Positions 217 to 38,184 of a DNA stretch of 38,184 nucleotides are shown here, in pieces. The stretch lies in IMG/VR virus record IMGVR_UViG_3300013117_000152, positions 1 through 38,184 of that record; one strand, 5' to 3'. Source of the DNA: a virus. Below the pieces are notes generated by a model. The model worked only from the letters and a program-made list of their open reading frames with translations. It was not told where the DNA came from and ran no database searches. Position numbers and translations under genes: made by a program. Positions within the stretch are counted from its first letter, which is position 1; every line of letters begins with the position of its first letter.

Positions 217-285
217 TCTACAATACAAGTAAAATATGGGTAGAAAAACTACCAAACGGATTTTATAGAAAAAAATAACCAACTC

Positions 286-398
286 GGAGCAGGGTGGCTT
301 TCACAGGAGAAGTCAGCGATAGGTAATAGGATAACAGATAATCGCCTTAGTGAAGTATCTGGCCGCAGGTAATACCCAAATCCTGCCCCTGCTCCACC
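286..398 (+). ncRNA. Candidate structured RNA, tRNA-like cloverleaf or riboswitch-like leader
   Basis: A perfect 9-bp closing helix (286-294 with 387-395) surrounds three further helices. They are 296-300/310-314 (one G-U), 316-320/341-345, and 365-369/382-386; the last directly abuts the closing helix, as a T-arm abuts an acceptor stem. This is the order of a tRNA cloverleaf, but the anticodon-like loop (20 nt) and T-like loop (12 nt) are far too long, and the 3' tail is ACCG rather than ACCA. CTCC at 392-395, part of the closing helix, could instead pair with GGAG of the ribosome site at 403-406 of the next gene, so a switch is possible. Competing helices exist (335-340 with 356-361). No known family was recognised. 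Confidence 0.45.
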
Positions 399-411
399 GA
401 AAGGAGAGAAG

Positions 412-645
412 ATGAAAAACTGGAAACAAGATTGTCCTAATTTCTCTTTCGAAGAATTAGTAGCAATGTATATTAATGATTGTATGCAATATCTTAAAGC
501 AAAACTTCAATTTAAAGAACCAGATTTAACAAAAGATGAATTTGAACAAACACAAAATCAAGAATTAATTTATTATGGTTTACGAGAACTTAAAGATTTG
601 TGTATGAGAATATCGGGGAAAGAACCTTTAAATTGGAAGGATTAA
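412..645 (+). CDS. Hypothetical early protein, 77 aa
   Basis: The start is well supported by AAAGGAGAG at 400-408. The product is charged, mostly helical, without motifs, signal peptide or membrane segment. It is the first gene after the structured RNA at 286-398, whose 3' strand lies only about 8 bases before the ribosome site, so its translation may depend on that RNA fold. No family recognised. Confidence 0.75.
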   Translation: MKNWKQDCPNFSFEELVAMYINDCMQYLKAKLQFKEPDLTKDEFEQTQNQELIYYGLRELKDLCMRISGKEPLNWKD

Positions 646-2667: not shown

Positions 2668-2931
2668 ATGTCTCTTACTATTTGTGAAAGGTGTAGGAAA
2701 AAAGAGTGTTTAGATATACAAAGACCCTGTAAAAGATTAGAGGAGTTATTAAGAAGGCGAGGGATATATTCAGCTAATTATATTAGACCAAAGAGATCAA
2801 CACAACAAGCAAGAGAGGATAATTTAGGTCAATGGAGAGAGATAAACGTAAAGAACATTGATGAGGTGGCTGTTAACAGGGCTTATGAGCTTAAATATGG
2901 AAAGCTGAAAAAGAAGGGGCGAGAGGATTAG
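2668..2931 (+). CDS. Hypothetical Cys-containing basic protein, 87 aa
   Basis: The N-terminus has CERC, KEC and a later Cys within the first 21 residues, a possible zinc site, followed by a basic KRLEELLRRRGIYSANYIRP segment. The rest is charged. A strong AAAGGGGAGAGG ribosome site precedes ATG 2668. It is the last gene of the early rightward block and meets the leftward nuclease gene tail to tail (4-base overlap). A regulator or nucleic-acid binder is possible but unproven. Confidence 0.7.
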   Translation: MSLTICERCRKKECLDIQRPCKRLEELLRRRGIYSANYIRPKRSTQQAREDNLGQWREINVKNIDEVAVNRAYELKYGKLKKKGRED

Positions 2932-3254
2932 TAGGGTTGGCAGTTACATTCATCAATAAGGAGTTTATTGACTAATTTATTGTCAATCCACACATACGCC
3001 AAAGTCCTGCCATATTTACCATAGCGATATTTACCATAAGTTAGTTTTATTCGTTTGCCTTTAAGTAATTTAGTTGTGTAGTTTTTGGCAATTAGCCCTT
3101 CTTTTGAGGGCAATTCAGGACAATTCACTTCAAGCAGTCTTATTCTTTCGTTATTATGCAGAATGAGAGTATCTCCGTCAATTACTCTTTTAACTTTATA
3201 GGTAGAGGAACATCCTATAAACAGGATAGTTAAGAGGATCAGAATTTTACGCAT
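2928..3254 (-). CDS. Thermonuclease-family (SNase-like) lipoprotein, 108 aa
   Basis: Residues 1-15 form a lipoprotein signal peptide with lipobox F-I-G-C15, so an exported, lipid-anchored protein is predicted. The rest matches the staphylococcal nuclease fold: DGDT (26-29), IRLLEVNCPE with Arg39 and Glu47 in the positions of catalytic Arg35/Glu43, and YGRTLAY with Arg83 for Arg87. The position of the calcium ligand Asp40 is Asn44 here. At 108 aa it lacks most of the C-terminal helix region of the usual ~150-aa enzyme. It is the last gene of the leftward operon. An envelope-located nuclease that degrades incoming or free DNA is a reasonable inference. Confidence 0.85.
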   Translation of the reverse strand: MRKILILLTILFIGCSSTYKVKRVIDGDTLILHNNERIRLLEVNCPELPSKEGLIAKNYTTKLLKGKRIKLTYGKYRYGKYGRTLAYVWIDNKLVNKLLIDECNCQPY

Positions 3255-3576: not shown

Positions 3577-4083
3577 TTAGCACCTCCTTTCCGCTACCTT
3601 GATTTTGTCAACCTCAGAAGCTTTGCAGGGAGTAAAATGCAAATCCCTGTCAACCTCAAGAAACCTTACCTTAAGCTCATCCAATTCCTTAAGACTGAAG
3701 TATCCCCATTCTGCCATATCGTAATCGTTGTTAAGTATTGCAAATCCAAAAAACAACTGCTGTTCCGGATCATACTCCGTTGCATACCAGTCACAACCAC
3801 CAATAAAGAAGTGTATATGAATTATCTTATTCTCCAAAGGCACTTCTTCTGTTGAATAGAAGGCCGGTAGCTTTGCCAGCTCTTCATTGCTTGGTTTATT
3901 CCACATTATTACCATCTCCTTTCTCATTTTATGTATCTCACCTAAAATAAACTTTTCATGCTCATCCATTAACTCCTGCAATTCTTTAACAGTCATGTCC
4001 TCATCTAAAGGCTCAAAGAAATAAACCCTCTCCCCTTCGGTCTCAAAATACTTTTTGGTCACCTTTGTAATTTTCATTTTCAT
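3577..4083 (-). CDS. DUF2958-domain protein, 168 aa
   Basis: The C-terminal half carries the DUF2958 signature: DWYATEYDPE, LFFGFA, E-x-GYFSL-x-EL, then DRDLHFTP. The N-terminal ~80 residues are charged and helical. DUF2958 proteins occur in phages and mobile elements and their biochemical role is not settled. It starts at ATG 4083 behind AGGAAGGAAG. The 154 bases between it and the upstream RHH gene hold no ORF I can support and probably act as an untranslated spacer within the operon. Confidence 0.75.
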   Translation of the reverse strand: MKMKITKVTKKYFETEGERVYFFEPLDEDMTVKELQELMDEHEKFILGEIHKMRKEMVIMWNKPSNEELAKLPAFYSTEEVPLENKIIHIHFFIGGCDWYATEYDPEQQLFFGFAILNNDYDMAEWGYFSLKELDELKVRFLEVDRDLHFTPCKASEVDKIKVAERRC

Positions 4084-4885: not shown

Positions 4886-5503
4886 ATGAATAATAAATTA
4901 AATACAAATAAAGATAATAATATAAATATAGATAGTAATAATAGTATTACTAATAAATCTAATAATAATACTAATAATAATATTAATAAAGATAATAAAT
5001 CTATTAATAATACTAATAAAAATATTAATAGAGATAATAAATTAACTAATAATACTAATACTATATTAGATTTTAAATTAAATAAAAAACAATTATCATT
5101 ACTAAATGTATTAAGTGATCCTGAATATGTGAATAAGATTAATAAGGAGAAAGCGAAATTAGCGGGAATCTCGGAGAAAACTTTTTACTCTTACTTACGT
5201 AATCCGAATTTTGTTAAGGCGTTACACATACGGGGACTTAGTGAAAGCTTGGCTTGTAGTTTGCCTGTAATTAAGCGTATGAGGAGAGATGCTTTATCGG
5301 GGAAATTTATGCAACAAAAGACAATGCTCGAAATGTCAGGGCATTACACTCAACAACCTCTCATCCAACAAGTTATACAAATAAATCAAGACCAACAACC
5401 AAGTGAAGAAGTGGATCAACAAATAATGAAAAAGATAATTGACATTGTTCCGACAGAGGATTTATCCACAGAGTTATCCCCAGAAAATAGTAAAGAGAAG
5501 TAA
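4886..5503 (+). CDS. terS: Terminase small subunit-like protein with poly-Asn N-terminal tail, 205 aa
   Basis: Residues ~63-110 hold a helix-turn-helix of the small-terminase type: LNKKQLSLLNVLSDPEY, KAKLAGISEKTFYSYLRNPNFVKAL. This DNA-recognition fold starts packaging of phage genomes with the large subunit. The first ~58 residues are low-complexity Asn/Lys/Ile/Thr, with no alternative start inside them, so the tail seems genuine and disordered. The C-terminus is Gln-rich, then acidic. The large-subunit gene is about 0.9 kb downstream, after several small ORFs. The coding DNA of the tail is about 9% G+C (22 of 240 bases, 4861-5100, hand count). Confidence 0.75.
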   Translation: MNNKLNTNKDNNINIDSNNSITNKSNNNTNNNINKDNKSINNTNKNINRDNKLTNNTNTILDFKLNKKQLSLLNVLSDPEYVNKINKEKAKLAGISEKTFYSYLRNPNFVKALHIRGLSESLACSLPVIKRMRRDALSGKFMQQKTMLEMSGHYTQQPLIQQVIQINQDQQPSEEVDQQIMKKIIDIVPTEDLSTELSPENSKEK

Positions 5504-26525: not shown

Positions 26526-26681
26526 CCCAAACTTGGGAAGCAAGATATTCCAATATATCTTTTTAATCAATTAAAGCTTGCTATTATTTTTATTATTAGC
26601 TCTTGGGACTTTCGGAGAGACTTCCCAAGAAAGAAAAGAAAGTCGGTTTCTCCGAAAGAAAAGAAAGAAGGGTTTCAACCC
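26526..26681 (+). promoter_or_regulatory. Structured intergenic leader with mutually exclusive hairpins
   Basis: The gap before the 895-aa gene holds several complementary words. TCTTGGGA (26601-26608) pairs with TCCCAAGA (26623-26630); CTTTCGGAGA (26609-26618), inside that loop, pairs exactly with TCTCCGAAAG (26649-26658). CTTGGGAAG (26532-26540) pairs with CTTCCCAAG (26621-26629). Small hairpins occur at 26526-26537 and 26670-26681. No T-run follows, so it is not a plain terminator. The overlap of partners suggests a pseudoknot or alternating fold that controls the downstream gene. Confidence 0.5.
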
Positions 26682-26706: not shown

Positions 26707-29394
26707 ATGCCAATTCGTTTAACGGATATAAAAGAAGAAGGAATAAGATTAACCAATATTCCAGAAAAATCGCAAGGAATTAGATTAACGGATATACCAG
26801 AAATAACTTCCAAAGGAATTAGATTGACTGACATAATAACTAAAGAGGATACTCCTTTTTCTAAAATGTCTAAATTTGGTAAGGTTTTAGATATAATTGG
26901 TCGTCCTGTGTATGGTTTAAAAGCTATGGTGGCACAAGCCCAAAGAGAAAATTTGGAGGCTATGAAAGGTATTCCAGAGACAGATTTAATTGCCCGTTCT
27001 AAAGTTCTTCTCGATAAAAAACCCCAAATCAAAAAAAGATTTGAAGCATTTTGGAGGGGACTTAGTGGTCAAGAACGACATACAATTAATGAATTGGCAG
27101 AAAATGTGGGCATAAGAAATATTCCCTTTATGGGTTTTGCTGCCGAGGTTACTCTCGACCCGTTAATGTATGGTGGTTATCAAGCGGTTACAAAAGGAAT
27201 TGGTAAAGCAGTGGGTCTGACAACCAAGGGGATAAAAAAAATACCTGGAGTTGTTAAAGTGGGAACTTTTATTGCAGAAAAAGTTCAACCAGTTACTTCC
27301 ACTTTAAAAACAATGTTTATTACCAAAACTGGTATAGGTAATCTTGGAGAATTAATTGATAAATATTTATCTAAAAGAGAGTGGTTAAAATATAAAGAAT
27401 TAAAATTTGGAATAAAAGCAAGAAATGTAATTCAGAATATCTCTAAAAAAACAGGTCATTCTATTGATGATGTGGAAAAACAAATAGTTAATTTGATTGA
27501 ACAACCTCAAATAATTCCTCGAAATGTTCCCCAAGAATCTATAGCATTAGCCAATATTTTTAAATCCCATTTAACTAATATATTAACTACGGAATTACAT
27601 GCAGGAGTTCCGATTACTTCTTTAGCTGGTGGAGTAAGAAATATAATGTATTTCCCTCGTATTACTACTAAAGAAGCAATGCGTCTTTTAAATCAAGCAA
27701 AACAAACTAATTTTGGTGGAAATGCAAAAATATGGTATCCCAAACTAAAAAATGCCATTCGACGCAAAACAAGAGATTTTACTCTTGGAGAATGGAATGA
27801 TCTTTGTGCTCAATATGGAGTTTCATCTTTAGGTGGTAAAACCGTTGAAAATTTCTTTTTGCAGAAACCCTCTATTGCTGTAGCAATAAGGGGTATTCGT
27901 TCAGCTAAAGCAGTTACTTCGGCTCAATTTTTGGATGATGTAGGTAAAACATTTGGATTAAAAACAGCACCTTCTTTTTGGGAAGAATTACCTGGCACTA
28001 TTACAAAATTAAATCCTTCTTTAAAAAATTTAAGGTTTGACCCAGAGATTGCAAGTGAAATTACAAGAATTACTCCAAAATATTTTAATCCCAATGAAAC
28101 AGGAATATTTCTAAAAGGATGGAGTGTTGTTCAAAATTTATGGAAGAAATGGACACTTGCACCATTCGCTAAATACCATTTAAGAAATATGGTGGGCAAT
28201 TTATGGAATGTTCATTTAGAGGGAAGTGCTAGACCTCGTCATTTTGCTATGATGCAAACCCTACAAACTTATAGAAAATATAAAGGGACTGGTGGAATAC
28301 AAGAAAGATTTGCTTTAGCAGAATTAAGAAAATTTAAAATTCTTCCACAACAAGCAGATGATCTTATCTTAAGAATGGAACAAACTCAAACATTAGGACA
28401 CGGTTGGTATGCTGCTGATATTGAAACAAGCATAGTAGAACAATTTGAAAGAGGATTTTTAAGGCTTCCTTTAAAGAAAAAGATAGCAAAAGTTGCAACG
28501 GGAAGAATAGTAACAGAGAAGGGTATGGCATTAGGAACCACGATTGAGAATAATGCAAGGGGAGCATTGTTTTTAGCCAGGTTAGAAAAGGGGGATGATG
28601 CTTTACGGGCATCTTTGGTAGTCAAGAAATATTTATTTGATTACCAAAATTTAACTGCTTTTGAAAAACAAGTAATGAAACGTGCATTTCCTTTTTATAC
28701 TTGGACAAGAAAAAATATTCCTCTTCAACTAGAAAATATATGGAAACAACCACAAAAGTTTGCTCGTTTAGCCCCAGTATTAAGGGAAAGAAGCCCTCAA
28801 GATTTGTTAAGACTTAAATATGCTATGCCACAATTATATGAAAGATTACCTATTGAATTGAAAAGAACCGTAGATACGGTTACCTATGTTCCGTTAGAAG
28901 GATTATTACCTGCTGGAGATTTAGCAAAAATTGTAAGACCACAAGAAATATTCCAAGAATTACTTTCACCCTTTGTAAGAGCACCATTAGAATTGGCATT
29001 TAATAAAAGTTTGTATTTTGAAAGCGAAATACAAAGATACGACAAGCAAACTCAAGAGTTGTTAAAAAAGGATATACCCATTAGATGGAAATATCTCTTA
29101 ACCACGATTTTGCCTCAAGCAAGACTGGTTAATGAAATAAATAAACTTATTAAAAAGCAAATAAGAAAAGAAAAATTAACTCCGGATGAACAATTATTTC
29201 ATCATACTTTATCTACGGTATATAAGATTAATTTAAAAGATTTAAGAAGAAGAGCATTACAGGTAATAGAAAGAAAAATGCAGGATTTAGAAAAGGGTGG
29301 CTTTTGGGCTAAGAAGTATGAAAGATTAAGGGAACTTGAAAGAGTTAAACAAACAATTCAGGAATACAGGCAATTAAGAAAAACATTGAGATAA
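26707..29394 (+). CDS. Large internal virion/ejection-type protein, 895 aa
   Basis: A long, basic, mainly helical protein in the position of the large internal virion protein of podoviruses. The first 43 residues contain four copies of I-R-L-T-[DN]-I (3-8, 13-18, 25-30, 38-43). Later are a hydrophobic stretch (IRNIPFMGFAAEVTLDPLMYG), KYHLRNMVGNLWNVHLEG and FPFYTWTRKNIPLQLENIW, motifs I associate with large phage internal proteins. The C-terminal 100 residues are strongly basic coiled helix. AAAAGGA precedes ATG 26707. Confidence 0.65.
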   Translation: MPIRLTDIKEEGIRLTNIPEKSQGIRLTDIPEITSKGIRLTDIITKEDTPFSKMSKFGKVLDIIGRPVYGLKAMVAQAQRENLEAMKGIPETDLIARSKVLLDKKPQIKKRFEAFWRGLSGQERHTINELAENVGIRNIPFMGFAAEVTLDPLMYGGYQAVTKGIGKAVGLTTKGIKKIPGVVKVGTFIAEKVQPVTSTLKTMFITKTGIGNLGELIDKYLSKREWLKYKELKFGIKARNVIQNISKKTGHSIDDVEKQIVNLIEQPQIIPRNVPQESIALANIFKSHLTNILTTELHAGVPITSLAGGVRNIMYFPRITTKEAMRLLNQAKQTNFGGNAKIWYPKLKNAIRRKTRDFTLGEWNDLCAQYGVSSLGGKTVENFFLQKPSIAVAIRGIRSAKAVTSAQFLDDVGKTFGLKTAPSFWEELPGTITKLNPSLKNLRFDPEIASEITRITPKYFNPNETGIFLKGWSVVQNLWKKWTLAPFAKYHLRNMVGNLWNVHLEGSARPRHFAMMQTLQTYRKYKGTGGIQERFALAELRKFKILPQQADDLILRMEQTQTLGHGWYAADIETSIVEQFERGFLRLPLKKKIAKVATGRIVTEKGMALGTTIENNARGALFLARLEKGDDALRASLVVKKYLFDYQNLTAFEKQVMKRAFPFYTWTRKNIPLQLENIWKQPQKFARLAPVLRERSPQDLLRLKYAMPQLYERLPIELKRTVDTVTYVPLEGLLPAGDLAKIVRPQEIFQELLSPFVRAPLELAFNKSLYFESEIQRYDKQTQELLKKDIPIRWKYLLTTILPQARLVNEINKLIKKQIRKEKLTPDEQLFHHTLSTVYKINLKDLRRRALQVIERKMQDLEKGGFWAKKYERLRELERVKQTIQEYRQLRKTLR

Positions 29395-36358: not shown

Positions 36359-36481
36359 ATGATTGAACTTCCTATAATATATGTTAGCCTTGCTGATTTA
36401 AACTTCTCGTCGAATAATCATCAAATTGCCGACACTTTGTCCCCACATTGGGACACGGTTGTCGGCTTTTTGTCTATCTAT
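36359..36481 (+). ncRNA. Candidate ~120-nt small RNA or attenuated leader
   Basis: The segment from the predicted start to the terminator's T-run is a self-contained transcript of about 120 bases. A 56-codon ORF from 36359 crosses the terminator stem and is therefore doubtful as a gene; a six-codon Leu-containing micro-ORF lies near 36380. It could be a trans-acting small RNA, or a leader whose terminator limits transcription into the nuclease operon. Confidence 0.5.
36428..36481 (+). terminator. Strong intrinsic terminator
   Basis: GCCGACA (36428-36434) pairs with TGTCGGC (36470-36476), with an inner stem TGTCCC/GGGACA (36438-36443 with 36450-36455), followed by TTTTT at 36477-36481. It ends transcripts from 36359 and probably the RHH gene at 36131. 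Confidence 0.8.
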
Positions 36482-36543: not shown

Positions 36544-36575
36544 CTCTTGATAATCTAATTATTACTTTAAAACCG

Positions 36576-36634
36576 AACCGAGAATTTGGTGTCGCAAGGC
36601 ATCAAAACCTGAGAAGGTTAAGAGATTCTCGGTT
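36576..36634 (+). ncRNA. Candidate three-way-junction RNA with two GNRA-loop hairpins
   Basis: A perfect 10-bp closing stem (36576-36585 with 36625-36634) encloses two hairpins: 36588-36593/36598-36603 with loop GCAA, and 36606-36610/36615-36619 with loop GAGA. Both loops fit the GNRA rule. Single-stranded joins are short (TT, AA, AAGAG). CTCTTTTT follows, so it can also act as a terminator, and AAGGAG for ATG 36655 lies just beyond. It resembles a riboswitch or attenuator leader, but no known class is recognised. Confidence 0.6.
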
Positions 36635-36654
36635 CTCTTTTTAAGGAGAATAAA

Positions 36655-36837
36655 ATGAAAATACTTGATTTAAAAGAAGAACTTTATAGAGAAAAAGTAG
36701 CTTCAAAATGTGAATCATTAGATTGGATTATTACTGCATTGGGTATCAGAACGGAAACATTGTCTTTAAAACAAGTCCAAAGAATGGAAGAAATTGCAGA
36801 TAGGAGAATAGAAAGAAATGCCAGAGAAATTAAATAA
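36655..36837 (+). CDS. Hypothetical small helical protein, 60 aa
   Basis: AAGGAG (36643-36648) precedes ATG 36655. The product is charged and predicted as two to three helices. First gene after the three-way-junction RNA, overlapping the nuclease gene by 20 bases, so both are probably co-regulated by that leader. Family unknown. Confidence 0.6.
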   Translation: MKILDLKEELYREKVASKCESLDWIITALGIRTETLSLKQVQRMEEIADRRIERNAREIK

Positions 36838-38113: not shown

Positions 38114-38184
38114 GGCGTGGTAGCCAAGTGGTAAGGCAGTGGTCTGCAAAACCATTATTCACCGGTTCGAATCCGGTCCACGCC
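38114..38184 (+). tRNA. tRNA-Cys (GCA anticodon)
   Basis: A complete cloverleaf: 7-bp acceptor GGCGTGG/CCACGCC, D-arm with GTGGTAAGG, anticodon stem GTGGT/ACCAT (one G-U) with loop CTGCAAA, anticodon GCA at 38146-38148, and T-arm ACCGG-TTCGAAT-CCGGT. The window ends at acceptor position 72, so the discriminator base and CCA are outside. The first base of the window is T, the discriminator expected for tRNA-Cys, which fits a circular map. It probably supplies Cys-tRNA for the phage's Cys-rich small proteins. Confidence 0.95.

Follow-up and report, generated by a model that had tools for sequence, protein, structure and literature searches.

Our results point to a structured 5' leader RNA in a phage mRNA, a domain that by prediction is a real and stably folded element and that is most likely a constitutive 5' structure, a reading to which we give about an even chance. 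It lies in the linear IMG/VR virus record IMGVR_UViG_3300013117_000152 (38,184 nt, 35% GC), the whole of which was analyzed and is called the window here. Specifically, the domain is stable and forms a GC island, its closing helix P1 pairs with near-certainty in the predicted ensemble, and masking of the downstream Shine-Dalgarno (SD) sequence costs no less than it does in shuffled interiors. Further, the leader is on the same strand as the SD and the ORF at 412, directly upstream of both, and the opposite strand folds worse (-34.4 vs. -40 kcal/mol). The coordinates are collected in Table 1.

Table 1. Features of the leader and its surroundings, in window coordinates.
Feature	Position	Strand	Detail or basis
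20-nt motif, second copy	270..289	+	18/20 identical to 85-104; runs into P1 5' strand
Structured 5' leader RNA domain (predicted), P1-closed, three inner arms	286..395	+	MFE, z, GC island
P1 5' strand GGAGCAGGG, acceptor-like	286..294	+	partner 387-395; pairing probability 1.0
P2, D-like hairpin	295..315	+	5-7 bp, 7-9 nt loop, GG at 306-307; in MFE fold
S1, anticodon-like stem 316-320/341-345	316..345	+	sequence; coexists with S2 only as pseudoknot
S2 335-340/356-361, inner stem 342-345/350-353	335..361	+	favored third arm; probability 0.91-0.99
P5, T-like hairpin	365..386	+	5 bp, 12-nt loop, abuts P1; probability 0.98
P1 3' strand CCCTGCTCC	387..395	+	pairing probability 1.0
ACCG after P1	396..399	+	resembles tRNA R73-C74-C75, then G not A
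SD, AGGAGAG region	402..408	+	sequence
Downstream ORF	412..645	+	77 aa; helical prediction, low confidence

The window encodes a portal of the SU10 type together with a large terminase, and its source is best read as an uncultured phage of the SU10-portal type. Elsewhere in it we observed a Staphylococcal-nuclease-like ORF carrying a lipoprotein-type signal (2928-3254, minus strand) and a small-terminase-like ORF at 4886 with tandem 12/30-nt, Asn-rich coding repeats at 4953-5060. The ORF at 412 had no family match and no recognizable relatives in protein searches, and a single-sequence AlphaFold2 model of its product was helical (pLDDT 64).

Predicted fold and the third arm

P1 comprises nine Watson-Crick pairs, seven of them GC, and in the AT-rich window no other perfect 9-bp long-range stem is GC-rich, P1 being by far the richest in GC of such helices. 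Inside it, the D-like stem (296-300/310-314, extendable to 295-301/309-315) forms with per-pair probabilities of 0.27-0.98, and the T-like stem (365-369/382-386) stacks directly on P1. These helices and their stacking, which an earlier note had read from the letters of the sequence, are present and strongly predicted, and the 12-base T-like loop and missing CCA that it reported are confirmed, P1 being followed by A396 C397 C398 G399.

The same note had placed all of the helices in a cloverleaf with a 20-base anticodon-like loop. This tRNA-like outline is right, and each helix exists as complementary segments, but the anticodon arm is wrong for the favored fold; the nested ensemble gives S1 a probability of 0.00, and at -34.4 kcal/mol the cloverleaf fold lies 5.6 kcal/mol above the MFE of -40 kcal/mol. 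Because bases 335-340 of the putative 20-base loop pair with 356-361 in the favored fold, S1 and S2 could coexist only as a pseudoknot, which would be of the H-type with zero bases between the stems. When the interior was shuffled and P1 held constant, a pseudoknot of similar size arose 0.9% of the time, and the window holds 46 comparable ones, AT-rich for the most part; hence, the leader pseudoknot is put forward as a proposal. Separately, a strong H-type candidate lies at 26601-26658, upstream of an 895-aa gene at 26707, with an 8-bp stem (26601-26608/26623-26630), a 10-bp stem (26609-26618/26649-26658), and an A-rich third loop.

Resemblance to tRNA

The leader is not a tRNA. Neither ARAGORN nor the Rfam tRNA model recognized it, the only tRNA that they detected in the record being a tRNA-Cys at 38114. 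With tRNA (RF00005, including degenerate phage tRNA genes) it shares the helix order, the stacking of acceptor-like on T-like stem, a 5-bp T stem, a U after the acceptor 5' strand, GG in the D-like loop, RCC after the acceptor, and a putative similarity in T-arm sequence. Unlike tRNA, it has an acceptor-like stem of 9 rather than 7 bp, an anticodon-like loop of 20 rather than 7 nt, and a T-like loop of 12 rather than 7 nt, together with no CCA, no score to the tRNA model, and an unfavored anticodon stem.

Ancestry is a different question, and here a tRNA origin is possible on sequence grounds. The leader could be a former tRNA gene that lost its function when insertions entered both its anticodon loop and its T loop, with three paired G-C added in the acceptor, an account that we regard as conceivable, if on the unlikely side. 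In local alignments of the leader with about 100-190 tRNAs taken from fetched loci, the closest tRNA in the pool was tRNA-Pro(UGG), whose GCAGGT-TCAAATCCTG-CTGCTCCGACC aligned with GCAGGT[AATAC]CCAAATCCTG[CCC]CTGCTCC-ACC in the leader. When 399 genomes were screened for tRNA genes whose acceptor reads exactly GGAGCAG/CTGCTCC, six matches came back, of which none was evidently a tRNA. The piece at 361-401 (the T-like arm and acceptor-like 3' strand) scored 38, a score reached by none of 300 dinucleotide shuffles, by 3/2000 and 11/4000 random hairpins of the same architecture (p about 0.002-0.003, so that it beats about 99.7% of such matched hairpins), and by about 17 of 10,898 other window pieces, all of these values being optimistic in that the piece was picked after an alignment was seen. 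Further, U8, G18G19, and the RCC-like positions fit, 12 of 17 tRNA-conserved loop positions do so overall (p about 0.03), the same record carries a tRNA-Cys, and the GGAG...CTCC-A ends of the leader also recall those of tRNA-Tyr/Ser.

Several results weigh on the other side of a tRNA origin. For the whole leader, 21 of 300 shuffles scored as well (0.07), which is not significant, the two tRNA finders are silent, and the anticodon-like arm is missing from the favored fold. These results weaken the decayed tRNA suggested by the earlier note, an idea to which the 3' piece and the conserved positions lend modest support. Moreover, the CGGAG that resembles a tRNA start also ends a local repeat that is common to a non-tRNA site. 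Specifically, the 20-nt motif AAAAAWTAACYAACTCGGAG occurs in two copies, at 85-104 and 270-289, where 0.02 would be expected by chance; the former leads into the SD of a 34-aa membrane ORF and the latter into P1, the CGGAG at the leader 5' end being the end of the motif. The motif is possibly a promoter or a duplicated ribosome site. A sigma-70 scan gave promoter-like sites only at chance level, which counts against the constitutive leader that we favor.

As for the tRNA-Cys (38114-38184), the contig stops one base before the end of the gene, and the break may fall within a cluster of tRNAs or coincide with an attachment site.

Stability, chance, and relatives

A second alternative is that the fold arose by chance and has no role, being one strong helix in a GC-rich local patch; we consider this improbable. 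The 113-nt element has an MFE of -40 kcal/mol, vs. -29 for shuffles (z about -3.1), its stability being equaled by 0/200 shuffles in a first set and 9/2000 in a larger one, and its energy ranks second-lowest among about 4000 113-nt windows. At 51% GC (rank 39 of 38,075), it is a noncoding GC island within a 35% GC genome. A 9-bp closing helix at the spacing of P1 appeared in only 8 of 10,000 GC-matched shuffles (0.08%), and the cloverleaf order of helices, given P1, in 12 of 10,000 (0.12%); therefore, P1 and the order of the arms are beyond chance. In favor of a chance fold, however, the element was selected from 38 kb and, as also counts against the constitutive reading, the interior is ordinary in stability once P1 is held fixed, with 25% of shuffled interiors matching the rest of the fold.

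The search for relatives bears on both of these readings. No homologue was found for the leader DNA among phage and plasmid records, for the leader locus in downstream-protein searches of phage and plasmid records and IMG/VR, or for the leader in the sampled Bacillota genomes, and the hits to exact loop and stem patterns in IMG/VR lay in unrelated contexts, as chance could produce. On TerL relatives (L002-L007), Clostridia loci, and 300 genomes, a covariance model built from the one sequence likewise returned no homologue, its best genome match being antisense within a tsaD-like gene. Among the TerL relatives, L002 is the same virus, and the sole same-virus contig, beginning at window position 3988, while L004, a 62% relative, lacks the leader. 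As judged from the sequences searched, the leader is an orphan, a single example. The failure to find a homologue, and hence any covariation, counts against the constitutive reading, and the lack of homologues is also in line with a chance fold.

The ribosome site and proposed role

The weakest of the alternatives, and one that we think very improbable, is a ligand- or protein-controlled, riboswitch-like element in which CUCC at 392-395 swaps between P1 and GGAG at 403-406 in the SD. The CUCC is able to pair with GGAG, the P1 5' strand likewise begins with GGAG, and GCAGG and CCTGC are each present twice, making register shifts possible. However, CUCC-SD pairing is negligible in the favored fold, where the SD is touched only by a two-pair GAAA mini-hairpin (GG 403-404 with CC 397-398, about 0.84), and forcing the masking CUCC-GGAG state costs 8.5 kcal/mol. 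This penalty was 7.2 +/- 1.8 in interiors shuffled with P1 fixed, about 95% of which equal or beat the leader, and the comparison revealed no bistable design. The on/off logic envisaged in the earlier note, in which P1 pairing would alternate with pairing to the ribosome site, was rejected on energy, and the riboswitch idea finds neither a second comparably stable, SD-masking fold nor an Rfam riboswitch match. A switching step in the leader is not supported by these predictions.

Among known RNAs, phage mRNAs carry stable 5' UTR stem-loops, such as the T7 RNase III sites. The leader resembles these in placing a GC-rich structure directly upstream of an SD and differs in its multi-arm fold, which has no long continuous duplex. 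Searches for a known element of different structure, with tRNA and Rfam models, identified nothing, the leader matching no known Rfam family. The manA RNA model (RF01745) gave 7.3 bits on a fragment (E 4.1, chance level; gathering threshold 55.2 bits), and the whole model did not match. A cyanophage and marine cis-regulatory candidate (PMC2864571, PMC9964418), manA RNA is like the leader in its phage 5' UTR location and in a final hairpin that abuts the closing stem (5 bp with an 11-nt loop), whereas it spans 192 positions vs. about 110. AbiF and type III antitoxin RNAs, which were leads from the literature, were dropped for want of an Rfam match and of a family match for the downstream protein.

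Other structured elements were seen toward the far end of the window. A three-way-junction leader at 36566-36646, before an ORF at 36655, has a long closing helix and two GNRA-loop hairpins (GCAA and GAGA), followed by TTTTT and then AAGGAG, and 36428-36471 holds a strong, terminator-like hairpin, GCCGACAC...GGTTGTCGGC, with TTTTT after it.

For the constitutive leader that we favor, we propose that the transcript folds such that P1 closes the D-like hairpin, the third arm at 335-361, and the T-like hairpin stacked on P1, with the third arm possibly pseudoknotted with 316-320/341-345. The end of P1 would sit 7 bases before the SD, and P1 would occupy the CUCC, which is otherwise able to mask the SD, and so leave the site largely open by default. 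The leader would thereby keep the ribosome site accessible, and it may also protect the end of the mRNA or flag a site of processing. A more specific proposal, which seems to us distinctly unlikely, is that a tRNA-derived, pseudoknot-containing leader has been kept as a cis-acting element, as a ribosome-site guard or processing signal, and is the first of an undescribed family. At present, the leader stands as an orphan structured leader, one more example of the structured RNAs that environmental phages carry and that are poorly catalogued; should it prove both to descend from a tRNA and to be functional, it would show clearly that a phage has turned a tRNA gene into an mRNA leader.
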